Assembly (NCBI GenBank): GCA_022750375.1
Contig: JAKIVU010000001.1
Span: forward strand, 94,695 to 157,247
Length of the DNA stretch: 62,553 nucleotides
Direction of reading: 5' to 3'
From: Thermoplasmata archaeon
GTDB taxonomy: Archaea > Thermoplasmatota > Thermoplasmata > Lutacidiplasmatales > UBA184
Shown here: positions 16,571 through 62,362 of the stretch, in pieces
Numbering within the stretch: position 1 is the first letter of the stretch
Layout: each line of letters begins with the position of its first letter
The notes under the pieces: model-generated
Told to the model about the DNA's origin: nothing
The model's input: only the letters and a program-made list of their open reading frames with translations
Databases searched by the model: none
Program-made: the position numbers and the translations under genes

Positions 16571-18250
16571 TCAGAACGCGCGGGACGGCTTATGCTCGCC
16601 GAACAGTCCGCGCCAGACGTCGGCGACCTCGCCGAGCGTGGCCCCGGCGTTGATGCTCGCGAGCACGGGCGGGAGGACGTTCTCTCCGTCGCGCGTCGCC
16701 TGCTCCAGGCGCGCGATCGCGGCGCGAAACTTCGCCGAGTCGCGCTCCTTTCTCCAGCGCCGAACCTGTCCGACCTGCCGCTGCTCCTCCGCGGGGGTGA
16801 TTCGCTGCACCGCGACACCACGACCCCCTACCTCAGGGAAGAGAGTGAAGTCGGTGTTACCGTCGGTGAACTCGTTCACTCCGACGACGACTTCTTGGTG
16901 CGCCTCGCGCGCCCGGGCGATTCGGTAGGCTTCGCGGGCGATCTCGGAGGCGAGGAAGCCGCGCTCGATCGCGAGCAACGCCCCTCCCATCTCTTCGATC
17001 CGGGCGAGATACTCGCGCGCCTCGCGCTCGATGCGGTCCGTCAGGTACTCGATCTCGTACGCTCCCCCGAGCGGGTCGACGGTGTTCGTTACCCCGGACT
17101 CCTCGGCAAGGATCTGCTGGGTCCGGAGCGCCAATCGGGCCGACGGCTCGGTCGGAAGACCGAGCGCCTCGTCCAGGGCGTTCGTGTGGAGCGACTGCGT
17201 GCCACCGAGCACGGCGGCAAGCGCCTCGAGCGTCGTGCGCACCACGTTCAGTTCCGGCTGCTGCGCGGTGAGGCTCGAGCCGGCGGTCTGCGTATGGAAC
17301 CGGAGCTGTTTGGATCGGGCGGAACGCGCGCCGAATGTCTCCTGAACGATCGTCGCCCACAATCTCCGGGCGGCGCGGTACTTCGCGATCTCCTCGAGAA
17401 AATTGCGGTCCGACGAGAAGAAGAACGAGAGGCGGGGAAGGAATTCGTCGAGGTCGAGGCCGCGTTCCTGCACCGCTCGGACGTACGCGATCGCGTTGGC
17501 GATCGTGAAGGCGACCTCCTGGACCGCCGTGGCCCCCGCTTCGCGCATGTGGTAGCCGGAGACGGAGATGTAGTTCCATTGCGGCATCTCGCGCGTGGCG
17601 AACTCGATCAAGTCGACCGCGAGGCGGAGCGACGCCTTCGGAGGGTAGATGTAGGTCCCGCGGGCGACGTACTCCTTTAGTATGTCATTCTGGACGGTGC
17701 CGCCCAGCCGGGCTCGCGGGACGCCGCTCTCCTCGGCGACCGCGACCAGGAGGGCGGTGAGGATCGGTGCGGTGGCGTTGATCGTCATCGAGACCGTAGC
17801 TTTGTCGAGGGGGAGACCCCGGAAGAGGGTCCGCATATCCCCGAGGGAGGCGATCGGGACGCCGCACCGGCCCACCTCTCCCACGGCCCGCGTGTGGTCA
17901 GAGTCGTAGCCGTTCTGCGTCGGGAGGTCGAACGCGACCGAGAGCCCGGTCTGTCCGCCTTTCAGAAGGAAATGGAATCGGCGGTTGGTCGCCTCGGCGC
18001 TTCCGAAGCCGGAGTACTGCCGAAGGGTCCAGAGCCGGCCCCGGTACATCGTCGGCTGGATCCCTCGCGTGTACGGGTACGACCCGGGAAATCCGACCTT
18101 GTCGAGGAACTCTCCGTCGGGGTCGTCGGGGGGTCCCACGAGGAGCGGAAGCTGACCTCCCTCGACCTTCGGGCCGATCGCCGCACGCGCGTCGGCCTCC
18201 CAACGCGCGCGGCCGGTCGCCTTCTTGGACGGTCGCCGGGAGCGGGCCAT
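16571..18250 (-). CDS. Methylmalonyl-CoA mutase, large catalytic subunit
   Basis: 559 residues covering only the TIM-barrel catalytic domain of the B12-dependent mutase that interconverts methylmalonyl-CoA and succinyl-CoA. Diagnostic segments are FPGSYPYTRGIQPTMYRGRLWTLRQYSGFGSAEATNRRF, GLSVAFDLPTQNGYDSDH, MSMTINATAP-like VSMTINATAP, YISVSGYHMREAGA, LRFHTQTAGSSLTAQQPELNVVRTTLEALAAVLGGTQSLHTNALDEAL and NTVDPLGGAYEIE. The B12-binding domain (DxHxxG) is absent, as in archaea where it is a separate small subunit; that gene is not in this window. It follows pheT after 29 bp and precedes mce. Confidence 0.96.
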   Translation of the reverse strand: MARSRRPSKKATGRARWEADARAAIGPKVEGGQLPLLVGPPDDPDGEFLDKVGFPGSYPYTRGIQPTMYRGRLWTLRQYSGFGSAEATNRRFHFLLKGGQTGLSVAFDLPTQNGYDSDHTRAVGEVGRCGVPIASLGDMRTLFRGLPLDKATVSMTINATAPILTALLVAVAEESGVPRARLGGTVQNDILKEYVARGTYIYPPKASLRLAVDLIEFATREMPQWNYISVSGYHMREAGATAVQEVAFTIANAIAYVRAVQERGLDLDEFLPRLSFFFSSDRNFLEEIAKYRAARRLWATIVQETFGARSARSKQLRFHTQTAGSSLTAQQPELNVVRTTLEALAAVLGGTQSLHTNALDEALGLPTEPSARLALRTQQILAEESGVTNTVDPLGGAYEIEYLTDRIEREAREYLARIEEMGGALLAIERGFLASEIAREAYRIARAREAHQEVVVGVNEFTDGNTDFTLFPEVGGRGVAVQRITPAEEQRQVGQVRRWRKERDSAKFRAAIARLEQATRDGENVLPPVLASINAGATLGEVADVWRGLFGEHKPSRAF

Positions 18251-46469: not shown

Positions 46470-49400
46470 GTGCGGTCGCAGTTCCACAGCTGTCTACCGA
46501 TTGCCCTCGCGACCGTACTCCTTTTGGGAGCCGTCGTGTCCGCCCCCACCGGACCCGCGGGCCAGGGTGCCGTGACCCCCGTCGGAGGGGCGGTCGCCGC
46601 GCCGGTGACCCCGCAGTTACCGATGGTGTCGCCGGCGACGCGCGGGCCGGTCGAGGTGGCGCCCGGCTTTCAGATGCCGGAGGGGGTCACGCCGCTCGGA
46701 GCGGTGCCGGCCGCGACCCGTCTCTACGTGGCCGTCGGGCTTCCGTCGCGGGACCCAAGCGGCCTGGCCGCGTTCGTCGCGGCGGCTTCGGTCCCCGGGA
46801 GCGCAGGGTACCGTGCCTTCCTGAGCCCGGGGGAGGCCCAGGAGAGATTCGGAGCATCCGCTCAATCGATCTCCGCGGCCCGAGCCTACTTCGCCGGTTT
46901 CGACCTCCCCGCGACCACGAATCCGGACGGCCTCCTGCTATACGTCTCGGGGCCGGCCAGCCGGATCGCGGCGGCGTTCGGAACCGCGTTCGATGCGTAT
47001 CGTTCGACTTCGGGCCGGACCTTCGTGAGCCATCCGACCCCGGCCTCGTTACCGGCGTCCCTGGGGACCAACGGAGTCTTCGGTCTCGGGAACGCGACCC
47101 CCCTCGTGCCATCCACCGTAGAAGTGCCGGGGAACGCGCCGGCCCCCGCCGTCGCCTGCACTGGCCCCGCCGGTGGACTCACTCCCTGCGCGATCGCCCG
47201 CGCATACGACATCACCCCGCTCGAAGCGAACGGTACTGACGGTCACGGCATGGCCATCGCGGTCGTCGACGCCTACGCGTCGAATGAAGGGCAAACTCAG
47301 CTCACGACGGACCTCGCCTCGTTCGCGGCCTCCTCGTCGATCCCGGTCGGCAACGTCAGCTACCTCTACCCGGTCCCTACGTCCGTCGACCTCAATGCCT
47401 CCGGAACGAACATCGACTGGGCGTTCGAGGATGCCCTCGACCTCGAATGGGCCCGCGCCTCCGCTCCCGGCGCCACGGTCGACATGACGTTCTCCCCGAA
47501 TCCGGACGCCGGCCTCTACGACGCCGTCGACTGGCTCGTCTCGGAGGACGCGGTCAACGTCGTGTCGATGAGTTGGGGGGAGCCGGACACGGGCGTCTTC
47601 AACGCGTTCGACCAGCCGTGCAAGACGGCGTGTAACGCCACCACGGACGGTTCCTACGAGATCCTCGATCCGGTGCTCGAGCTCGGCACCGCGGAGGGGA
47701 TGACGTTCTTCGCGGCCTCGGGCGACTGCGGCTCCGCGGACGGGACCTCGGGGGTCGCCACGAACTTTCCGGCGTCGGACCCGTATGTGACCGGCGTCGG
47801 CGGCACTGACCTCACCGTCGGCGTCAACGACAGCTACGCGGCCGAGACCGCCTGGTCGGGGAACGCGACCGGCGCCAGCTCTCCGGGATGCAACAATCAG
47901 GGGGGCTCGGGGGGAGGCTTTGCTCCGTTCCCGGAGCCGTGGTGGCAGTTCGGCATCGCCGACGGAGCGCGCGCCCGCGGCGTCCCGGACGTCGCGATGG
48001 ACGCCGAGAATCCGGTCGCGATCGTCTTCGACGGCGGGGCGACGGGCGTATCCGGAACCAGCGTGGGGACCCCGATCTGGGCGGGGATCGCCGCGCTCGC
48101 CGACCAGTACGCCGGTAAGGGGCTCGGTCTTCTGACCCCCAGCCTCTATGAGATTCTCCGAGGACCATCGTACGCCACGGACTTCCACGACATTACGGCC
48201 GGCAACAACGGGTACGCCGCAGGCCCCGGATGGGACCCCGTGACGGGCATCGGTTCGCCGATCGTGGCCTCGCTCGTTCCGGATCTCGTGCGCGGCGGCG
48301 GTCTCCCTGGCGGGGGTCTGTCGACCACGCTCTACGCCTCGCCGCGAAGCGGCCATGTGCCCCTCGCGGCCTCCTTTGCCGTGAGCGCCTCGGGAGGGAC
48401 CGGGGGATACCCGTTGGAAGGGATCTCGTTCGGCGACGGGGGCTCCGCGTTGGCGAACGGTACCGTCGTGGTGCACACGTACTCGGTGCCGGGCGACTAT
48501 CTCGCCCAATCCTTTGTCGCCGACGACACCGGTAACACTTCGACCTCGCTCCCGGTCCTCGTTACGGTCGGGGGAGGGTCGCTCTCCGTCGCGCTCTCCG
48601 TTTCGAACCCGATCCCCACCGTGCAGGGGTTGGTGACGCTCACAGCGACCGCGATCGGCGGTTCGCCCCCGTACTCCTACCAGTTCTACTTTGGGGACGG
48701 CGGCTCCACGTCGCCCGGCGGCGCGTCGGTCGTTCACGCCTACCAAGTGGTGGGCGGTTTCTGCGCCGAAGTCATCGCGGTCGACTCGGCGAACCCGACG
48801 GACGCGGGCACCAGTCCACGCGTCGCCGTCGCGGTCGGTGGGGCGAGCACCCCGAACTGCGCCGACGGCTCGACCCCGTTCACCGTCGCCGCGAACGAAA
48901 GCGCGCCGGCGCGCGACGCCCCCGCGGACTACGACCAATCGCTGTTCACGACCTCGGGGGGGGCGAGCGCCCCGGACGGCCTGGCGCCGTCGACGAGCCT
49001 CGCCTCGAACGACTCGTACATCGCCGCCTGCGCGTGCGAGATCTTCCGTCACCCCGGCAATTACACCGTGACGGAATGGGCGAACGACACCGTGGACGGC
49101 TCCGCGAATGCGACGCGGAACCTCACCGTCGCCCCGGCGCTCGACGCGACGTTCGCGGCGTCCACCCTTTCCGGTCCCGCGCCGCTCAAGGTCTATTTCT
49201 TCTCCTCCACGAAGGGCGGATTCCTCGCGGACGCGAACCTCACCCACTGGACGTTCGGGAACGGGGGAAGCGCGGTCGGTCACTCGGTCAACGCGACGTA
49301 CTCGATCCCCGGAGAGTACCTCGCCTTCGGACGACTTTCCGACCAGGGCGAGGGGAACGGCAGCGAAGCGTTCCTGATCGACGTGGAACCGGTGAGCACC

Positions 49401-50387
49401 AACCCACCGCTCGGCGTTACGGCCACGGTGACGCCCGTGAGCAACGTATCGTCCGGAGCCTCCGTCCGCTTCACCGCGACCGTCGTCGGTACCGCGAGCG
49501 AGACGAACGGCGTCGGAGTGGAGTGGAATCTCGGGGATGGCCGTTCGGCGTACGGCAATTCGGTCGCCGAGACGTACTATGGTCCGCTCCCCAGCAGCGC
49601 GAACAACACCATCGCGGGCGGGGTCACGATCCAGACCCCGTTCCTGCAGACCCTCTACACCCTCGGGTTCCACCTCCCGTCGTTCTTCGCTGTCGAGGCC
49701 GGCGGGTACGTGCCCCGGGCGAACGCGCTCCAGGCGACCACCAACGTTTCTCCCAGCGAGAACCTCGTGCCGTTCGCCATCTTCGGCAACGCCTCCGCGA
49801 CCGGGCCGCACCCGATCTCGATCGCCTGGCTGTTCGGCGACGGCACGTCCGGCACGGGCTCCCAGGTCGAACACACGGTGTACGGCGCCCAGGGCTACCT
49901 CGTCGAGACGATCGTGACGGACGGATGGGGGGACGTCGGCACGCTGCTGAGCGGCGTCGCGGCGAACGGCCCGCTCGGGATCGCCGGTTCCCCGTCACCG
50001 GGCGAGGGGCCGAAGCCGCTGACCGTCACGATCGCCGCCTCAGGGTACGGCGGAAAGGGCCCCCCGTACGTGTACGATTGGACGTTCGTGAACGGGAGTC
50101 ACTCGAGCAACCCGACCGCGACGTTGTTCTTCCCGAACATCGGCACCTACGTGGTGCGCATCAACGTGACCGACCGTTCGGGAGCGATGGCGGAGCGGAA
50201 CTTCACGATCCTCGTCGAGTATCCGTTCCCGTACGCCCCGCTCGAGATCATCGCGGGAAGCGCGGCGGTCGGCGGTCTCCTCGCGGTGGCGTTGTACCAG
50301 AACTTGGGGTCCCGCCGAGGGAAGCGCCCCGGCGAACCGTGGCTCGACCACCCACGGACGGCGTCCGATGGGACCCCCGTCTGGTAA
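46470..50387 (+). CDS. Sedolisin-type (S53) protease with multiple PKD domains, membrane-anchored
   Basis: 1305 residues. A signal helix (LPIALATVLLLGAVVSAP) precedes a Pro-kumamolisin domain (about 70-200). The catalytic domain has Glu320 and Asp324 (FEDALDLEW), oxyanion Asp419 (ASGDCG), Ser531 (SGTSVGTPIWAG) and a calcium-site end (DITAGNNGYAAGPGWDPVTGIGSP). About six PKD/Ig-like modules follow (GISFGDGGSALANGT.VVHTYSVPGDY is a typical unit). The end has a helix (LEIIAGSAAVGGLLAVALYQ) and a basic tail. All triad residues are present. It is likely a surface acid protease feeding peptides to the Dpp system. The GTG start is preceded by GAGGGGG. Confidence 0.93.
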   Translation: MRSQFHSCLPIALATVLLLGAVVSAPTGPAGQGAVTPVGGAVAAPVTPQLPMVSPATRGPVEVAPGFQMPEGVTPLGAVPAATRLYVAVGLPSRDPSGLAAFVAAASVPGSAGYRAFLSPGEAQERFGASAQSISAARAYFAGFDLPATTNPDGLLLYVSGPASRIAAAFGTAFDAYRSTSGRTFVSHPTPASLPASLGTNGVFGLGNATPLVPSTVEVPGNAPAPAVACTGPAGGLTPCAIARAYDITPLEANGTDGHGMAIAVVDAYASNEGQTQLTTDLASFAASSSIPVGNVSYLYPVPTSVDLNASGTNIDWAFEDALDLEWARASAPGATVDMTFSPNPDAGLYDAVDWLVSEDAVNVVSMSWGEPDTGVFNAFDQPCKTACNATTDGSYEILDPVLELGTAEGMTFFAASGDCGSADGTSGVATNFPASDPYVTGVGGTDLTVGVNDSYAAETAWSGNATGASSPGCNNQGGSGGGFAPFPEPWWQFGIADGARARGVPDVAMDAENPVAIVFDGGATGVSGTSVGTPIWAGIAALADQYAGKGLGLLTPSLYEILRGPSYATDFHDITAGNNGYAAGPGWDPVTGIGSPIVASLVPDLVRGGGLPGGGLSTTLYASPRSGHVPLAASFAVSASGGTGGYPLEGISFGDGGSALANGTVVVHTYSVPGDYLAQSFVADDTGNTSTSLPVLVTVGGGSLSVALSVSNPIPTVQGLVTLTATAIGGSPPYSYQFYFGDGGSTSPGGASVVHAYQVVGGFCAEVIAVDSANPTDAGTSPRVAVAVGGASTPNCADGSTPFTVAANESAPARDAPADYDQSLFTTSGGASAPDGLAPSTSLASNDSYIAACACEIFRHPGNYTVTEWANDTVDGSANATRNLTVAPALDATFAASTLSGPAPLKVYFFSSTKGGFLADANLTHWTFGNGGSAVGHSVNATYSIPGEYLAFGRLSDQGEGNGSEAFLIDVEPVSTNPPLGVTATVTPVSNVSSGASVRFTATVVGTASETNGVGVEWNLGDGRSAYGNSVAETYYGPLPSSANNTIAGGVTIQTPFLQTLYTLGFHLPSFFAVEAGGYVPRANALQATTNVSPSENLVPFAIFGNASATGPHPISIAWLFGDGTSGTGSQVEHTVYGAQGYLVETIVTDGWGDVGTLLSGVAANGPLGIAGSPSPGEGPKPLTVTIAASGYGGKGPPYVYDWTFVNGSHSSNPTATLFFPNIGTYVVRINVTDRSGAMAERNFTILVEYPFPYAPLEIIAGSAAVGGLLAVALYQNLGSRRGKRPGEPWLDHPRTASDGTPVW

Positions 50388-51866: not shown

Positions 51867-53318
51867 TTACCCCTTCACGACCCCGAGCGGGACCAGGCGG
51901 GCGACGCGACGCGTGAGGCCCGCCCCTTCGGCGACCCGCACGACCTCCTCCACGTTCTTGTAGGCGCCCGGCGCCTCCTCGGTCACGCCCTCGCGGGACG
52001 CGGAGCGGACGATGATCCCTTTGCCCGCCAGGCTGCGGGTCACCTCTTCAAACCGGAACGTGCGGACCGCCGCCTTCCGGGAGAGCCGTCGACCGGCGCC
52101 GTGGCAGGAAGAGCCGAACGACCGTTCCATCGCGGTCGGAAGACCGGCGAGCACGTAGCTCGCGGTACCCATGTCGCCCGGGATCAGGACCGGTTGACCG
52201 AACCGTCGGTAGGCCAACGGGACCTCGTCCCGCCCGGCGGGGAAGGCACGGGTCGCCCCCTTCCGGTGGACGAGGAGCCGCTTCCGCCCGCCGTTGACCG
52301 CGTGCTCCTCGACCTTCGCCATGTTGTGCGAGATGTCGTAGACGACCGAGAGGTCGAGCTCCTCCTCCGTTCGGGCGAACTCCGCCGAGAACGCGCGACG
52401 CACGCCGTGCGTCATCGCCTGCCGGTTGGCCCACGCAAAGTTCGCGGCGGCGGCCATCGCGCGGAGGTACCGTTGGGCGGGCTCGGACGAGATCGGAGCG
52501 CACGACAGTTGCCGGTCGACGAGCGTGATCCCCTGGCCGGCGAGGCCCCGGTCCATCTCCTGAATGTAGTCGGTCGCCACCTGGTGCCCGAGCCCCCGGG
52601 AGCCGGTGTGGAGCATCACGACGACCTGGCCCGACGCGAGCCCGAGCACGGGGGCGAACTCGGGGTCGAACACCTCGTCGACCGCCTGCACCTCGAGAAA
52701 GTGGTTGCCCGACCCGAGCGTGCCGAGCTGTTTCAAACCCCGCTTTCGCGCGCTCTCGGAGACCGCCGCCGGGTCTGCGCCGGCGAGACAGCCCTGCTCC
52801 TCCTGGACCTCGAGGTCCGCCGACCGACCGAGCCCGTGCTCGACCGCCCAGCGGGCCCCTCCGGCGAGGACCTCCTCGACTCCCGAAGGGGAGAGGGGAT
52901 GCCCTCCGCGCGAACCCACGCCCGACGGGACCTCGCGATACAGTCGCTCGAGGAGCGACGCGAGATGCGGGCGGACCTCCTCGGTCCGGAGCGACGTGCG
53001 GATCAGGCGGACGCCGCAATTGATGTCGTACCCGATCCCGCCGGGGGACACGACCCCTTCTTCGAGGTCGAACGCGGCGACGCCGCCGACGGGGAATCCG
53101 TAGCCGAAGTGGATGTCCGGCATCGCGAGGGCGTAGCGTTGGATGCCCGGGAGGGTCGCCACGTTGGCGAGCTGGGCGAGGGAGGGGTCGCCGGCGACTC
53201 CGGAGAGCAGCGCCGCATTGGAGAAGAGGAGTCCCGGGACGCGCATACCGGCGACCGCGTCCTGCGGGATCTCGTAGGTGAACTCGTCCCGCTGGACGAG
53301 CGTTGGCACGCTCGGCAT
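51867..53318 (-). CDS. rtcB: RNA-splicing ligase RtcB
   Basis: 483 residues, full-length with no intein. Motifs: GGIGYDINCGVRLIR (metal Cys), GSGNHFLEVQAVDEVF, VMLHTGSRGLGHQVATDYIQEM, NFAWANRQ, VYDISHNMAKVEEH, DMGTASYVLAGLPTAMERSFGSSCHGAGRRLSR, containing the guanylated-His region. RtcB joins tRNA exon halves through 2',3'-cyclic phosphate and 5'-OH ends using GTP and Mn. It would be needed to splice the tRNA-Leu(UAA) in this window. A TATA box 27 nt before the ATG indicates a leaderless mRNA. Confidence 0.97.
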   Translation of the reverse strand: MPSVPTLVQRDEFTYEIPQDAVAGMRVPGLLFSNAALLSGVAGDPSLAQLANVATLPGIQRYALAMPDIHFGYGFPVGGVAAFDLEEGVVSPGGIGYDINCGVRLIRTSLRTEEVRPHLASLLERLYREVPSGVGSRGGHPLSPSGVEEVLAGGARWAVEHGLGRSADLEVQEEQGCLAGADPAAVSESARKRGLKQLGTLGSGNHFLEVQAVDEVFDPEFAPVLGLASGQVVVMLHTGSRGLGHQVATDYIQEMDRGLAGQGITLVDRQLSCAPISSEPAQRYLRAMAAAANFAWANRQAMTHGVRRAFSAEFARTEEELDLSVVYDISHNMAKVEEHAVNGGRKRLLVHRKGATRAFPAGRDEVPLAYRRFGQPVLIPGDMGTASYVLAGLPTAMERSFGSSCHGAGRRLSRKAAVRTFRFEEVTRSLAGKGIIVRSASREGVTEEAPGAYKNVEEVVRVAEGAGLTRRVARLVPLGVVKG

Positions 53319-53790: not shown

Positions 53791-54348
53791 CTAGGGGGGA
53801 GCCCCTTCCGTCGCGACGAACAGCATCGGCTCTTTGGCCCGGGCGTTCGCGCCGGGGCTGACCGCGAGGCCGCGGACGACCCCGTCGACCGGGCTCGTCA
53901 ACTCGTTCCGCATCTTCATCGCTTCGAGGACGAGGAGCACGTCACCCTTGCGCACGCGGTCGCCCTCTTTCACGCGGACCTCGATCACTTTTCCCGGCAT
54001 CGGCGGAACGATCGGCGCGCCGGCGCGGGACGGGGCTCGGGGAGGAGGAGCCGTCGTCGGTAGCGCGGGCGACCGGGACGGTGCGCCGGAGCTCGGGCTT
54101 ACGGCGCTGCGCTCGATCCCGACCTTCCACCGTTCGCCGTTCACGTCGACCGGCCCGGGGGGTTCTGGGAAGTGATCCGGCCAGTTCTCGACCAGCACGC
54201 GTTCGCCCGCGACCTCGAGCTCGACCGCGGTCGGGGTCGCGCGCACGACCGTCACCGGGTACCGCTCGGCACCGACGGTCACGGCGTCGCCTCCCGGGGC
54301 GACCTCGACGGTCGTCGACCTACCGTCCCGCTCGACGATGATTCGCAT
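53791..54348 (-). CDS. Biotin carboxyl carrier protein
   Basis: 185 residues from ATG 54348. The C-terminal biotinyl domain (about 110-185) has IVPPMPGKVIEVRVKEGDRVRKGDVLLVLEAMKMRNEL, with the biotin-accepting Lys145 in EAMKM. The N-terminal half (MRIIVERDGRSTTVEVAPGGDAVTVGAERYPVTVV) is a small beta domain seen in carrier subunits of acyl-CoA carboxylases and decarboxylases. An Ala/Pro linker connects them. A Shine-Dalgarno GGAGGTG lies five bases before the ATG. It overlaps the upstream carboxyltransferase gene by 29 bp. It ends the operon birA-mmdA-5S-bccp. Confidence 0.94.
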   Translation of the reverse strand: MRIIVERDGRSTTVEVAPGGDAVTVGAERYPVTVVRATPTAVELEVAGERVLVENWPDHFPEPPGPVDVNGERWKVGIERSAVSPSSGAPSRSPALPTTAPPPRAPSRAGAPIVPPMPGKVIEVRVKEGDRVRKGDVLLVLEAMKMRNELTSPVDGVVRGLAVSPGANARAKEPMLFVATEGAPP

Positions 54349-55852
54349 CGACCCACCTCCGTTGCGATTGCAGGCGGGCGCGACCTTCGTGCGCCCAAGG
54401 GCTGAGCCCACCGGTCGCGGGGGCGTTCGCCGGTGCGATCGTCGGCGGGGGCGAGGGGGCCCGGAGCGCGCCGACCACTCCCAGGGCCGCGCTCGTGAGC
54501 ACATCGGAGGAGAGCCCCCGGTCGATCGCGGTCCGGTACGACCGGTAGACGATAGGAAAGAGGGCGTAGGAGAGCGCTTCGGCGTCGTCGGCCGCTGGGA
54601 CGAGCACCCGCACCTCGGCGAGCATTTTCTCGAACTCGGGGGGGAGAAGGTCCGCTGGGCGGCCCGTGATCGCGGTCACGCCCTCGGTCAGGACCTTCGC
54701 CCGTAGGTCGGGGTCGATCGGCGCCGGCGGGGTCCCGTAGAGGCCCCGGACGTAGTCCCGCACTTCCTGGGTGATCTGCCGATAGCGACCGCCGGTCAGC
54801 ACGTTGAGCACGGCCTGGATCCCGACGATCTGGCTCGTCGGGGTAACGAGGGGAGGGTACCCGAGGTCGGCGCGGACCCGGGGGACTTCCGCTAGCACCT
54901 CGGTGAGACGGTTCAGTGACTCCTGTTCCTGGAGTTGCGAGAGGAGGTTCGAGAGCATCCCACCGGGCACCTGGTGGGTCAGGATCCCCGGGTCGGTCTG
55001 CAGGGAGCGGATGTTGAGCAGGGGGCGATACCGGTCCAGCACGGTTCCGAAGTAGGTGGCGAGGTCGGCGAGCGCGTGGAGGTCGAGGTGGGTGTCGAGG
55101 GCGGTGTGCTGCATGGCACCGACCAGCGTTTCCGTGGGGGGTTGGGAAGCTCCGCCCGAGAACGGGCTGAGGGCGCTGTCGACCGCGGCGGCACCGGCTT
55201 CCGCGACGGCGAGGCAGGTCATGGTGGACATGCCGCTCGACGAATGCGTGTGCACGACGACGGGCAGGCCGACCTTTTTGACGAGCGCCCGTACGAGGGC
55301 GGCGCCTTCGGTCGGCGGGAGAAATCCCGCCATGTCCTTGACGCAGAGCTCGTCGGCCCCCATCGCCGCGAGCCGTTGGCCGAGCTCGACGAACGCCGGC
55401 AAGGTGTGCACGGGGGATTGGGTATAGCAGATCGTCGCCTGTGCGCGAGCGTCCACGGCCCGGACCGCGTCGAGGGCGACCTCCATGTTGCGCGGGTCGT
55501 TCAGCGCGTCGAAGACGCGGAAGATGTCGATGCCCTGGGCCGCCGATTCGGCAACGAACTTTCGGACCAGGTCGTCGGCGTAATGCCGGTAGCCGACGAG
55601 GTTCTGTCCGCGGAGCAGCATCTGGAGGGGCGTCTTCGGCATCGCCCGCTTCAGGAGACGGAGCCGTTCCCACGGGTCTTCCCGAAGGAACCGGAGGCTG
55701 ACGTCGAACGTCGCGCCTCCCCATACCTCGATCGAGCGGTAGCCGATCGCGTCCAGCCGTTCCGCCGCCGGGAGCATGTCCCGCGTCCGCATCCGCGTCG
55801 CGATGAGCGATTGATGCCCGTCGCGCAGGACGGTCTCGGTGATGCCGACCAT
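54320..55852 (-). CDS. Pyruvate/oxaloacetate carboxyltransferase (transcarboxylase 5S / PycB / OadA type)
   Basis: 510 residues, TIM-barrel carboxyltransferase. ITETVLRDGHQSLIATRMRTRDMLPAAERLDAIGYRSIEVWGGATFD contains the metal Asp and pyruvate-binding residues. MLLRGQNLVGYRHYADD, IFRVFDALNDPRNM, KDMAGFLPPTEG (carbamylated Lys) and VHTHSSSGMSTMTCLAVAEAGAAAVD (metal His pair) follow. PGGMLSNLLSQL, VTPTSQIVGIQAVLNVL and ITGRPADLLPPEFE match the 5S subunit of Propionibacterium transcarboxylase, and there is no fused biotin domain. Length also matches 5S. PycB or OadA remain alternatives. It starts 16 bp after mmdA. Confidence 0.92.
   Translation of the reverse strand: MVGITETVLRDGHQSLIATRMRTRDMLPAAERLDAIGYRSIEVWGGATFDVSLRFLREDPWERLRLLKRAMPKTPLQMLLRGQNLVGYRHYADDLVRKFVAESAAQGIDIFRVFDALNDPRNMEVALDAVRAVDARAQATICYTQSPVHTLPAFVELGQRLAAMGADELCVKDMAGFLPPTEGAALVRALVKKVGLPVVVHTHSSSGMSTMTCLAVAEAGAAAVDSALSPFSGGASQPPTETLVGAMQHTALDTHLDLHALADLATYFGTVLDRYRPLLNIRSLQTDPGILTHQVPGGMLSNLLSQLQEQESLNRLTEVLAEVPRVRADLGYPPLVTPTSQIVGIQAVLNVLTGGRYRQITQEVRDYVRGLYGTPPAPIDPDLRAKVLTEGVTAITGRPADLLPPEFEKMLAEVRVLVPAADDAEALSYALFPIVYRSYRTAIDRGLSSDVLTSAALGVVGALRAPSPPPTIAPANAPATGGLSPWAHEGRARLQSQRRWVDANHRRAGR
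54354..54360 (-). promoter_or_regulatory. Shine-Dalgarno site of bccp
   Basis: GGAGGTG lies five bases before the bccp ATG and is fully complementary to the CACCTCC at the 16S rRNA 3' end at the right edge of this window. It lies inside the upstream coding region, which explains efficient reinitiation across the 29-bp overlap. Confidence 0.7.
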
Positions 55853-55868
55853 GATCGACGACCCCGCG

Positions 55869-57419
55869 TTAGAGTGGGATGTTCCCGTGCTTCTTCGCGG
55901 GCCGGTCGTCGCGCTTCGAGGAGAGCATCTTGAGGCCAGCGACGAGGCGTGCCCGGGTCTCGGCGGGGTCGATCACGTCGTCGATGTACCCCCGCTCGGC
56001 GGCAAGGTACGGATTCAGGAACTCGGTCCGGTAGTCGGCGATGAGCCGTGCCCGAAGCGTCTCCCGGTCGGCCTCGGGGGTCCGGTCGAGCTCGCGGCGG
56101 TAGAGGATGTTGACCGCCCCATCGGCGCCCATGACGGCGATCTCGGCCGTCGGCCACGCCAGGTTCAGGTCTCCTCCGAGGTGCTTCGAGCACATCACGT
56201 CGTACGCCCCGCCGTACGCCTTCCGTAGGATGACCGTCAGCAGCGGGACGGTGGCCTCGGCATACGCGTACAGCAGCTTCGCCCCGTGACGGATGATCCC
56301 CCCGTGCTCCTGGGCCGTGCCGGGGAGGAAGCCGGGCACATCCACGAACGTGAGGAGCGGGAGATTGAACGCATCGCAGAACCGGACGAAGCGGGCCGCC
56401 TTGGTGGAGGCGTTGATGTCGAGCGTCCCGGCGAGGGCGCCCGGATTGTTCGCGACGACGCCGACCGGATGGCCCGCGAGCCGTGCGAATCCAACGACGA
56501 TGTTCGGGGCCCAGGTGCTGTGCACCTCGAGGAGCGTCTCGGGGTCGAGGACCCGGGCGAGTACCTCGTGCACATCGTAGGGTGCGTTCGCGTTCTCGGG
56601 TACGATTTGGGGGAGCTCGGACGCGGCCGAGTCCGGCGGCGACGTCGCCGCGGAGACCGGGGGCTCCTCCAGATTGTTGAGCGGCAGGTAGGAAAGGAGG
56701 TGGCGCGCGAGGACAATTGCGTCGGCGTCGGAACCCGCCGTGAAGTGGGAGACCCCGCTCAGGGAGGCGTGGGCGTCCGCGCCCCCGAGCGCGTCCATCG
56801 TGACCTCCTCGCCGGTGACGGCACGAACGACGTCCGGCCCCGTGATGAACATCTGCCCGGTGCCTTCCGCCATGATCACGAAGTCGGTGATCGCGGGCGA
56901 GTAGACCGCCCCGCCGGCGCACGGGCCGAGGATGAGAGAAAGTTGAGGGACGACGCCCGATAAGGAGACGTTCCGGAAGAACACCTCACCGTACCCACCG
57001 AGGCTCATCACCCCCTCTTGTATGCGCGCGCCCCCGGAATCGTTCAACCCCACGATCGGGACGCCGGCCTTGCGGGCCGTTTCCATGACCTTGACGATCT
57101 TCATTGCGTGAGCCTCCCCGAGCGCCCCTCCGAACACGGTCGCGTCCTGGGCGAAGGCGCATACCGGACGCCCCTCGACCTCCCCCCATCCGGTGACCAC
57201 CCCGTCCCCCGGAGGTCGTCGGTCGGCGAGACCGAACTTCTCGACGCGGTGCGTGACGAACGGGTCGATCTCCGTGAACGTCCCCGGGTCGAAGAACGAC
57301 TCGAGCCGCTCGCGAGCGGTGAGCTTCCCTGCCGCCCGGTGTTTCTCCACGCGGTCGGCGCCCCCGCCCTCGCGCGCCTTGCGCTTCAGGACCGTCCACC
57401 GGTCGAACGCTTCGCTCAT
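55869..57419 (-). CDS. Methylmalonyl/propionyl-CoA carboxyltransferase (MmdA/PccB, transcarboxylase 12S type)
   Basis: 516 residues from ATG 57419, crotonase-like ACC carboxyltransferase. The start MSEAFDRWTVLKRKAREGGGADRVEKHRAAGKLTARERLESFFDPGTF is typical. GGARIQEGVMSLGGYGEVFFRN and GPCAGGAVYSPAITDFVIMAEGTGQMFITGPDVVRAVTGEEVTMDALGG form the acyl-CoA site, and PGFLPGTAQEHGGIIRHGAKLLYAYAEATVPLLTVILRKAYGGAYDVM the biotin site. The family includes PCC beta, methylmalonyl-CoA decarboxylase alpha and transcarboxylase 12S. The start overlaps the birA stop by 4 bp (ATGA). Confidence 0.95.
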   Translation of the reverse strand: MSEAFDRWTVLKRKAREGGGADRVEKHRAAGKLTARERLESFFDPGTFTEIDPFVTHRVEKFGLADRRPPGDGVVTGWGEVEGRPVCAFAQDATVFGGALGEAHAMKIVKVMETARKAGVPIVGLNDSGGARIQEGVMSLGGYGEVFFRNVSLSGVVPQLSLILGPCAGGAVYSPAITDFVIMAEGTGQMFITGPDVVRAVTGEEVTMDALGGADAHASLSGVSHFTAGSDADAIVLARHLLSYLPLNNLEEPPVSAATSPPDSAASELPQIVPENANAPYDVHEVLARVLDPETLLEVHSTWAPNIVVGFARLAGHPVGVVANNPGALAGTLDINASTKAARFVRFCDAFNLPLLTFVDVPGFLPGTAQEHGGIIRHGAKLLYAYAEATVPLLTVILRKAYGGAYDVMCSKHLGGDLNLAWPTAEIAVMGADGAVNILYRRELDRTPEADRETLRARLIADYRTEFLNPYLAAERGYIDDVIDPAETRARLVAGLKMLSSKRDDRPAKKHGNIPL

Positions 57420-58156
57420 GCGACTCCCTCCACACGAACATCTCCGGCTCTTATCGCCACCCGCTCGCCGTCGCCATCCAGGAGCAGCTCCCCCTCCTCG
57501 CCGAGGCCGACGATCGTCCCGGAGTCTTGGCCGTCCACGGCCGCTCGGCGTCCCACCCCGAAGAGCCAACGGCGGCACAACTTTCGGGTCGCTTCGGCCC
57601 CCCCGGTCCCCTGCAGTCCGATCGCCGCGCGCATCGCCGAGCGCACGACGACCGTCTCGACCGCATCCAGTGATGGGGGGGACCCGACTATTTCGGCGAG
57701 TGACGACGCTCGGTCTCGCAGTTCGCCCGGAAACTGATCGCGGCGGGTCGTGACGTTGACCCCGATCCCGGCCACTTCGACGGCCGCCCCGGGAGGGTCG
57801 ACGACCCGGTCGACCAGGACCCCCGCGACTTTACGGGCCGGAACGGAGGGGCGGGTCACGAGGAGGTCGTTGGGCCACTTGACCGAGAAGCGCGCGGAGT
57901 ACTGGTCCGTGAACTCTTGGGCGAGCCGCGCGCCGAGTGCGAGCGGGAGCCAGGTGAGGTGCTCGGGCGGTGCGCGGAGGAGGATCGACACGTAGAGGCC
58001 GCCGGGAGGAGAGGTCCACGTGTGGTCGAGGCGCCCCCGTCCGTGCGTTTGTTGCCGCGCGACGACCCGGGTCCCCTCGGGTGCGCCCGTGCGCGCGAGC
58101 TCGATCGCTCGGTCCTGCGTGGAGGAGAGCCGATCGTGAAACTCTCGAGGACCCAT
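57416..58156 (-). CDS. birA: Biotin-protein ligase
   Basis: 246 residues from ATG 58156, catalytic domain only, no DNA-binding domain. The motifs are HDRLSSTQDRAIELARTGAPEGTRVVARQQTHGRGRLDHTWTSPPGGLYVSILLRAP (GRGR loop binding biotinyl-AMP), VKWPNDLL, KVAGVLVD and AGIGVNV. The C-terminal SH3-like domain (GRRAAVDGQDSGTIVGLGEEGELLLDGDGERVAIRAGDVRVE) is present. It attaches biotin to Lys145 of the carrier three genes downstream. It heads the biotin operon. A TATA-like GTTAAGC lies about 40 nt upstream. Confidence 0.94.
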   Translation of the reverse strand: MGPREFHDRLSSTQDRAIELARTGAPEGTRVVARQQTHGRGRLDHTWTSPPGGLYVSILLRAPPEHLTWLPLALGARLAQEFTDQYSARFSVKWPNDLLVTRPSVPARKVAGVLVDRVVDPPGAAVEVAGIGVNVTTRRDQFPGELRDRASSLAEIVGSPPSLDAVETVVVRSAMRAAIGLQGTGGAEATRKLCRRWLFGVGRRAAVDGQDSGTIVGLGEEGELLLDGDGERVAIRAGDVRVEGVA

Positions 58157-58439: not shown

Positions 58440-58796
58440 ATGGGCGAGATCGAACAACTCTTGGCGGACGTCGGTCGTCGGTTCCAGCCGGAGCTCCAGT
58501 CGCGCTTGAAAGGATTGTTCGGTGGGATCATGCAGAGCTACCTGCCCCAGGTGTGGGTCTTCGAGACCGGCGACGAGACCGCCTCCCTGCTCGTCGACAA
58601 ATCCGGTGCGGTCTCTGCGGTCGGCGGCGCGGCGCCCCACCCGGATGTTACCGTAAAGATCCCACGTGAACGCCTCGTCGCCGCGTTGAAGACCCGAGAC
58701 AAGGCGCAGGTCCCTCCCGGACCCCTGACCGTGACGCCCCACACCACGAAGGGCAAGACCGCGTTCGACTACCTTCGGTCGCGCCTGGGACTCTAG
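58440..58796 (+). CDS. SCP2 sterol-transfer-like domain protein
   Basis: 118 residues of SCP2 fold: EIEQLLADVGRRFQPELQSRLKGLFGGIMQSYLPQVWVFETGDETASLLVDKSG, then VTVKIPRERLVAALKTRDKAQVPPG. SCP2-like proteins bind lipids or acyl-CoA in a hydrophobic cavity; in archaea the ligand is unknown. The position close to the CoA-carboxyltransferase operon is suggestive, but the strand is opposite. GAGAGGCG just before the ATG can act as ribosome-binding site. Confidence 0.85.
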   Translation: MGEIEQLLADVGRRFQPELQSRLKGLFGGIMQSYLPQVWVFETGDETASLLVDKSGAVSAVGGAAPHPDVTVKIPRERLVAALKTRDKAQVPPGPLTVTPHTTKGKTAFDYLRSRLGL

Positions 58797-60270: not shown

Positions 60271-60711
60271 CTAGCCGAGCTCGCGGAGCCGGCGCGTCAT
60301 CTTGACGACGGCCCGTACGGCGTTCCCCGCGTTCTCGATCCGGTCCTGCGCCTGGAGCCGGGTCTCGCCGGGCCCGGAGATGCCGAGGCCCAGCGGCTTC
60401 CCGAACTCGACCGAGAGGTCCGTCAGCTTTCGGGCCGCCTGGTTCATGACGACCTCGTCGTGGTTCGTCTCGCCTTCGATGACGGCACCGAGCGCGACGA
60501 CCGCATCGACCTCCGAGCGCCCGAAGAGGACCTTGACGGCGAGCGGCATGTCGTAGACGCCGGGGGTCTTGACGACCGGTCCGAGCGTGGCGCCGAGGAA
60601 GTCGACCTCCTCCTTCGCCCGCTCGAGCATCATGAGCGTGATGTCGTAGTTGTATTCGCTCGCCACGATCGCCACCGTCACGCCCTTTCCTTCCTTGTTC
60701 TTCTTCGCCAT
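60271..60711 (-). CDS. ribH: 6,7-dimethyl-8-ribityllumazine synthase
   Basis: 146 residues. VTVAIVASEYNYDITLMMLERAKEEVDFLGA, GVYDMPLAVKVLFGRSEVDAVVALGAVIEGETNHDEVVMNQAARKLTDLSVEFGKPLGLGISGPGET match lumazine synthase, with the catalytic His in TNHDEVV. It condenses 5-amino-6-ribitylaminouracil with the four-carbon product of RibB. It is last in ribB-ribL-ribC-ribH, 21 bp after ribC. Confidence 0.95.
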   Translation of the reverse strand: MAKKNKEGKGVTVAIVASEYNYDITLMMLERAKEEVDFLGATLGPVVKTPGVYDMPLAVKVLFGRSEVDAVVALGAVIEGETNHDEVVMNQAARKLTDLSVEFGKPLGLGISGPGETRLQAQDRIENAGNAVRAVVKMTRRLRELG

Positions 60712-60732
60712 CGTTGTTGCTCCGTTGGATCG

Positions 60733-62362
<1,630 letters not shown>

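Follow-up and report, generated by a model that had tools for sequence, protein, structure and literature searches.

The window analyzed here is a stretch of 62,553 nucleotides from a Thermoplasmata archaeon, and its minus strand carries, at positions 53791 to 58156, an operon for a biotin–protein ligase (BirA), two carboxyltransferases of the 12S and 5S types and a free biotin carrier. With good confidence, we consider this operon to encode a biotin transcarboxylase, composed of 12S, 5S and the free carrier, together with its ligase; the enzyme would act as an ATP-independent propionyl-CoA:oxaloacetate transcarboxylase, probably replacing propionyl-CoA carboxylase (PCC). That the operon fulfils the function of PCC is best supported by relatives in which a PCC operon takes its place. 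As a candidate archaeal transcarboxylase it is well supported by comparative genomics; the kind of enzyme is known, the host group is new, and the natural exchange with PCC is notable. Literature searches limited to open-access papers yielded no description of an archaeal transcarboxylase that has been characterised.

Gene content and active sites of the operon

The four genes of the operon are the following:

57416–58156, minus strand: birA, at the start of the operon, biotin–protein ligase of 246 aa (TIGR00121, 113.9 bits with a cut-off of 83.1; PF03099)
55869–57419, minus strand: acyl-CoA carboxyltransferase of the 12S/PccB/MmdA type, 516 aa (PF01039, 651 bits)
54320–55852, minus strand: carboxyltransferase of the 5S/PycB/OadA type, 510 aa, without fused biotin domain (PF00682 (HMGL-like) and PYC_OADA)
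53791–54348, minus strand: free biotin carrier, 185 aa, with an EAMKM motif (PF00364, Biotin_lipoyl)

An earlier note, made from the sequence alone, had proposed an operon of these four genes, and family profiles confirm that it is real. The genes had been described as overlapping, which holds for birA and the 12S gene (4 nt, ATGA, joining the stop of the first to the start of the second) and for the 5S and carrier genes (29 nt), but 12S and 5S are spaced by 16 nt. Domain profiles likewise bear out the length of 510 residues and the lack of a fused biotin domain in the second enzyme. A scan of the operon for promoters and terminators was empty, as expected from a bacterial consensus applied to an archaeal host.

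The 12S protein matches PccB from Streptomyces coelicolor (1xnv, E 1.5e-205) and the 12S subunit from Propionibacterium (1on3, 5e-178), and it has an Asp aligned to D422 of S. coelicolor PccB, which we take to be the residue of propionyl-type enzymes. The fold of the 5S protein matches the transcarboxylase 5S subunit (1rqb) as well as 5ks8 and 2nx9, and its residues D11, K172, H201 and H203, invariant in an alignment of 11 sequences, align after an 11-residue chain offset with D23, K184 (carbamylated), H215 and H217 of 1rqb, the metal ligands of the Propionibacterium enzyme. The match to 5S motifs claimed earlier thus stands as far as a shared active site is concerned, but this site is common to the superfamily of PycB, OadA and 5S, so that the motifs alone were ruled out as proof of 5S identity, and the protein scores higher with the PycB model (673 bits) than with the 5S model NF008984 (500 bits, with a cut-off of 827).

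In PCC, binding to the beta subunit is mediated by the BT domain. In an AlphaFold model of the carrier, an N-terminal domain of beta strands is joined through a disordered linker (residues 82–107) to a C-terminal biotinyl domain. Foldseek aligned the entire model to the BT-BCCP region in structures of PCC alpha (6ybq, 6ybp, 3n6r; E about 1e-8), with a large overall root-mean-square deviation because the two domains move. Given this match and the role of BT in beta binding, the modelled carrier looks like a PCC alpha subunit from which the biotin carboxylase (BC) part is missing.

Gene pairing and absence of biotin carboxylase across the family

In the host assembly, neither a BC gene nor a gene for OAD_beta, the sodium-pump subunit OadB, was found. 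This assembly is a metagenome-assembled genome (MAG) of 930,984 bases in 17 contigs and is 69% complete; an absence there means little, and the whole family of the host was therefore analyzed. The census of 5S and 12S genes covered 91 family genomes, including the genome of the window, the scan for BC with PF02785 covered 103 and the scan for OAD_beta 90, and 34 genomes with completeness of at least 90% and contamination of at most 5% formed a near-complete subset.

A 5S piece was present in 80 of the 91 genomes, and in 77 of these 80 it is immediately preceded by a 12S gene of the same strand, usually with a gap of 18–49 nt between aligned ends, so that the arrangement is not due to chance. 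PF02785, which recovered BC in 13 of 14 control genomes, matched only three of the 103 family genomes (G006, G033 and G085), all three without 5S. Not one of the 80 genomes with 5S, 32 of them near-complete, has a BC; among the near-complete genomes, 32 contain 5S only, two BC only, none both and none neither. Over all 91 genomes the exclusion of 5S and BC has a Fisher p of 0.0014, in a set of genomes that are not independent of each other. When the full-length BC protein of G085 was used as query against 58 family genomes, strong matches were obtained only in G006 and G033; the weaker ones cover mostly BC residues 94–320, often occur twice per frame of about 1,100–1,900 residues and are read as ATP-grasp segments, probably of carbamoyl-phosphate synthase. 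OAD_beta was detected in none of the 90 genomes, which rules out a sodium-pump decarboxylase. The lack of BC and of a membrane decarboxylase subunit, noticed earlier within the window, therefore extends to the host assembly and, with the three exceptions for BC, to the family.

In other Thermoplasmata families, the same order of 12S, 5S and carrier occurs in G117, G107 and G128 (L087, L088 and L089), with birA in front in G128. Both G117 and G128 also possess a BC gene far from these genes, which limits the exclusion of BC to the family of the window. The near-complete Thermoplasmata genome G105 (L090, L091) lacks BC and has 12S, carrier and OAD_beta genes side by side, with a 5S-like gene at another place; two decarboxylases may share one pump here, or the genes may represent a further transcarboxylase arrangement.

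In-place exchange with propionyl-CoA carboxylase

The operon lies between two conserved neighbors:

51867–53318, minus strand: rtcB, downstream edge of the exchangeable slot (PF01139, 576 bits)
58440–58796, plus strand: small conserved protein, divergent from birA and kept beside it, bounding the locus upstream

In G033 and G085, rtcB and birA are placed as elsewhere in the family, with orthologous genes on both sides, and the slot between them is filled by 12S, BC and BCCP genes in the opposite orientation. The same trio is found in G006 on a 5 kb contig without flanks. In a tree of 12S proteins, those of the PCC-type operons fall in a clade that includes a Bathyarchaeota sequence and is separate from the family's own 12S, which means that the operon was exchanged and not edited; this placement, together with the opposite direction of the operon, rules out that BC was swapped for 5S inside the operon. 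A PCC operon has replaced the 12S-5S-carrier operon, and birA stayed. Methylmalonyl-CoA mutase is retained in the near-complete genomes G033 and G085, and the presence of PCC in place of the operon points to the same job for both, the carboxylation of propionyl-CoA. The transcarboxylase interpretation of the earlier note gains strong support from the fact that PCC with its BC occurs in exactly those relatives that lack 5S. Of the two findings that the note had named as refuting it, a BC pairing with these subunits was not encountered in any family genome with 5S, and a 5S firmly inside archaeal PycB was not seen in the best tree. The small protein at 58440–58796, for which no Pfam or NCBIfam match was obtained, is also found beside birA in several transcarboxylase-type loci and in the PCC-type locus of G033.

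Phylogeny and C-terminal tail of the 5S protein

The 5S proteins of the family form one clade (support 100/100) on a long branch, which in the best tree is placed outside the clade of methanogen PycB (98/91), whereas the Propionibacterium 5S pairs with OadA from Vibrio; deep branches of this tree are weak. Forcing the family 5S together with the Propionibacterium 5S cost 38 log-likelihood units (approximately unbiased (AU) test, p 0.059), and a grouping with archaeal PycB was not formally rejected (AU p 0.12). The tree that the earlier note had proposed as a check thus places the protein outside archaeal PycB, with this reservation, and does not support a kinship with the Propionibacterium 5S. 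A single clade of all 5S proteins encoded next to 12S was rejected (AU p 0.011; p 0.0035 when the Propionibacterium 5S was included).

The 5S protein of the window ends in SPWAHEGR, and this tail, W-x-x-x-GR or a close variant in general, is present in all C-terminally complete 5S proteins with a 12S neighbor, including those from Bathyarchaeota, Hermod, Acidobacteria and other Thermoplasmata, and in one 5S from Acidobacteria for which the contig stops upstream of the gene. None of the remaining 76 sequences, which belong to pyruvate carboxylases, oxaloacetate decarboxylases or uncertain cases, showed it; in this count, for which the motif had been read off part of the counted set beforehand, 13 5S proteins with a 12S neighbor scored as negative because the end of the locus or contig truncates them. 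As the single clade was rejected, the shared tail is not accounted for by one clade. The trees suggest, not decisively, that the 12S-5S pairing had more than one origin or was exchanged laterally. The predicted 5S structure has low confidence over the tail, and that the tail serves as a docking element is a guess. Since sequence scores alone separate 5S, PycB and OadA poorly, the tail might serve as a marker in metagenomes to distinguish transcarboxylase 5S from PycB and OadA.

Comparable 12S-5S(-carrier) operons whose 5S bears this tail occur in a Bathyarchaeota locus (L118), in archaeon H03M_Hermod_104 (L155) and in two loci of Acidobacteriota (L147 and L180), the contig of L147 beginning just before 5S. 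In L118, a BC-BCCP pair adjoins birA, 12S, 5S and carrier genes, and parts of PCC and of a transcarboxylase may coexist there.

Proposed reaction and its place in metabolism

From the gene content and its distribution, we infer that the 12S, 5S and carrier proteins form a complex, that propionyl-CoA and oxaloacetate are its substrate pair and that it works in the direction described below. The ligase encoded by birA would biotinylate the carrier; 5S would move the carboxyl group of oxaloacetate onto the biotin of the carrier and release pyruvate; the carrier would then swing to 12S, where the carboxyl group would be transferred to propionyl-CoA to form methylmalonyl-CoA. Epimerase and then mutase would convert this product to succinyl-CoA, and the tricarboxylic acid (TCA) cycle would regenerate oxaloacetate, the source of this substrate in Pelotomaculum as well (PMC6046458). 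The net result would be the conversion of propionyl-CoA to pyruvate without ATP or bicarbonate, and in reverse the enzyme could also form oxaloacetate from pyruvate.

The likely next enzyme of this pathway is encoded in the window, unlinked to the operon and flanked by enolase/S2 and PheT/PheS genes:

16571–18250, minus strand: methylmalonyl-CoA mutase large subunit, 559 aa (PF01642, 681 bits)

A mutase and an epimerase had been claimed at 16–18 kb; the mutase is there and, like it, a methylmalonyl-CoA mutase is found in nearly all family genomes, but no epimerase is present at this place.

With respect to other sources of oxaloacetate, phosphoenolpyruvate carboxylase (PEPC) and both families of phosphoenolpyruvate carboxykinase (PEPCK) were not found in 96 family genomes scanned for each, with a PEPC search that also detects the bacterial type; pyruvate carboxylase was not found in the family scans either. 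A malic-enzyme-like protein (PF03949) is present in 98 of 103 family genomes, mostly with weak scores of about 80 bits. Two kinds of this protein are seen: some 20 genomes have one that matches strongly (about 300 bits), and nearly all have a divergent form that reaches about 80 bits, in frames of mostly 480–550 aa. Exchange between C3 and C4 compounds would therefore rest on the transcarboxylase and possibly on malic enzyme.

The family genomes have GC contents of 65–70%, sizes of about 2 Mb and a gene for a kumamolisin-type (S53) protease. Such Thermoplasmata genomes, of a single family with several genera, would fit the acid-soil order Lutacidiplasmatales (PMC9287336), and these archaea probably come from acidic soils and mine waters. 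In the survey of that order, pccB was used as a marker of the propionate-to-succinate route and read as PCC (PMC9287336). If the family belongs to Lutacidiplasmatales, this reading would be corrected, and propionyl-CoA would be processed without ATP or bicarbonate; if our interpretation is true, the family as a whole has an archaeal transcarboxylase standing in for PCC, with a natural in-place swap.

Evaluation of the proposal and of alternative explanations

Several points weigh against the proposed function. The mutual exclusion of 5S and BC rests on at most two exchange events, and the genomes are incomplete MAGs, that of the host included. The 5S protein scores higher with the PycB and OadA models than with the 5S model, and in the tree it does not group with the Propionibacterium 5S. 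The direction of the reaction is not fixed by sequence. The search for an epimerase, confined to this window, covered genes from 11 to 21.5 kb and found none, and the malic-enzyme-like protein means that the operon is not the only possible link between C3 and C4 compounds.

The strongest alternative concerns only the direction, namely that the same enzyme works mainly in a fermentative Wood-Werkman or anaplerotic sense, converting methylmalonyl-CoA and pyruvate to propionyl-CoA and oxaloacetate. The reaction is reversible, another source of oxaloacetate would be useful where PEPC, PEPCK and pyruvate carboxylase were not found, and some genomes of the likely group contain fermentation genes (PMC9287336). 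On the other hand, PCC, which in practice works toward methylmalonyl-CoA, replaces the operon in place, and the likely group is described as aerobic, with beta-oxidation and breakdown of branched-chain amino acids yielding propionyl-CoA (PMC9287336). We regard this direction as unlikely, its chance overlapping with that of the proposed function because the enzyme is the same. The Wood-Werkman-like cycle of the earlier note is thus supported as to its enzyme, whereas its fermentative direction is less likely than a propionyl-CoA-consuming one in an apparently respiring acidophile.

A transcarboxylase with another acyl-CoA partner, for example the malonyl-CoA/acetyl-CoA pair, would explain the same gene set. 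Enzymes of the 12S type differ in substrate, and archaeal 12S homologues are bifunctional in some lineages, but the Asp at the PccB D422 position, if the assumed specificity rule holds, and the mutase in nearly all family genomes make such a partner rather improbable. Only slightly less credible is that one carrier, charged with ATP by a BC encoded elsewhere, serves both a pyruvate carboxylase (5S as PycB) and a PCC (12S as PccB), as the earlier note had offered as alternative. In its favor are the homology of every subunit to PycB and PccB, the top score of the PycB model for 5S and the unlinked BC genes of some Thermoplasmata such as G117; against this, the scans with the Pfam model (103 genomes) and with the full BC protein (58 genomes), which placed BC only where 5S is missing, led us to reject this arrangement for the family. 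Least probable of all are soluble oxaloacetate and methylmalonyl-CoA decarboxylases sharing the carrier with uncoupled loss of CO2, for which the presence of pump subunits without OadB and the slow spontaneous decay of carboxybiotin could be cited, but OAD_beta is absent from the family, and it is improbable that 77 genomes would retain a fixed gene order for enzymes that waste energy in this way.

Returning to the propionyl-CoA:oxaloacetate transcarboxylase, one idea is that low bicarbonate in acid favored the loss of BC and PEPC. In a wider and tentative scenario, which we hold to be possible but not the likelier outcome, transcarboxylases arose more than once from a PycB/OadA-type 5S and a PccB-type 12S, with the W-x-x-x-GR tail as mark; in this acidophilic family the enzyme would have taken over propionyl-CoA carboxylation to such an extent that carboxylases using ATP and bicarbonate disappeared, possibly owing to the scarcity of bicarbonate in acid, and a few lineages would have swapped back to PCC in place.

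Comparison with known systems

Propionibacterium transcarboxylase (EC 2.1.3.1; 12S, 1on3; 5S, 1rqb; 1.3S, 1dcz) has the same set of 12S, 5S and separate carrier without BC or pump, and its 5S metal ligands are conserved in the operon. In contrast to that enzyme, the 5S described here is not close kin in the tree, the carrier has 185 aa and so exceeds its counterpart in size, its N-terminal domain is BT-like, the operon includes birA, and the host is archaeal, probably aerobic and acidophilic. By its description, the mmc cluster of Pelotomaculum thermopropionicum, with a propionyl-CoA:oxaloacetate transcarboxylase in propionate oxidation, resembles our proposal in direction, propionyl-CoA being carboxylated from oxaloacetate without ATP (PMC6046458); there mutase, epimerase and TCA cycle enzymes are linked in a syntrophic anaerobe, whereas in the window the mutase lies apart from the operon, which contains birA. 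With PCC the operon shares a 12S equivalent to PccB, a carrier like the BT-BCCP part of PCC alpha and, in G033 and G085, the locus, but it contains a 5S gene instead of BC. The 5S and its homologue PycB share about 55% identity in the core, but unlike the PycA/PycB system there is no PycA, the biotin domain is unfused, the W-x-x-x-GR tail is present and the protein falls outside the archaeal PycB clade. The Na+ pumps that decarboxylate oxaloacetate or methylmalonyl-CoA have homologous carboxyltransferase and carrier subunits, but they depart from the family in having OAD_beta.

Other features of the window

Beside the operon, at 60271–62362, lies an archaeal riboflavin/FAD cluster with two proteins of lumazine-synthase fold, one of them perhaps the archaeal riboflavin synthase, a RibL-like cytidylyltransferase and RibB; it is largely kept beside the operon in relatives. 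On the other side, 46470–50387 encodes a large protein that looks secreted and combines a pro-kumamolisin activation domain with PKD domains, which fits the acid peptidases reported for Lutacidiplasmatales (PMC9287336).

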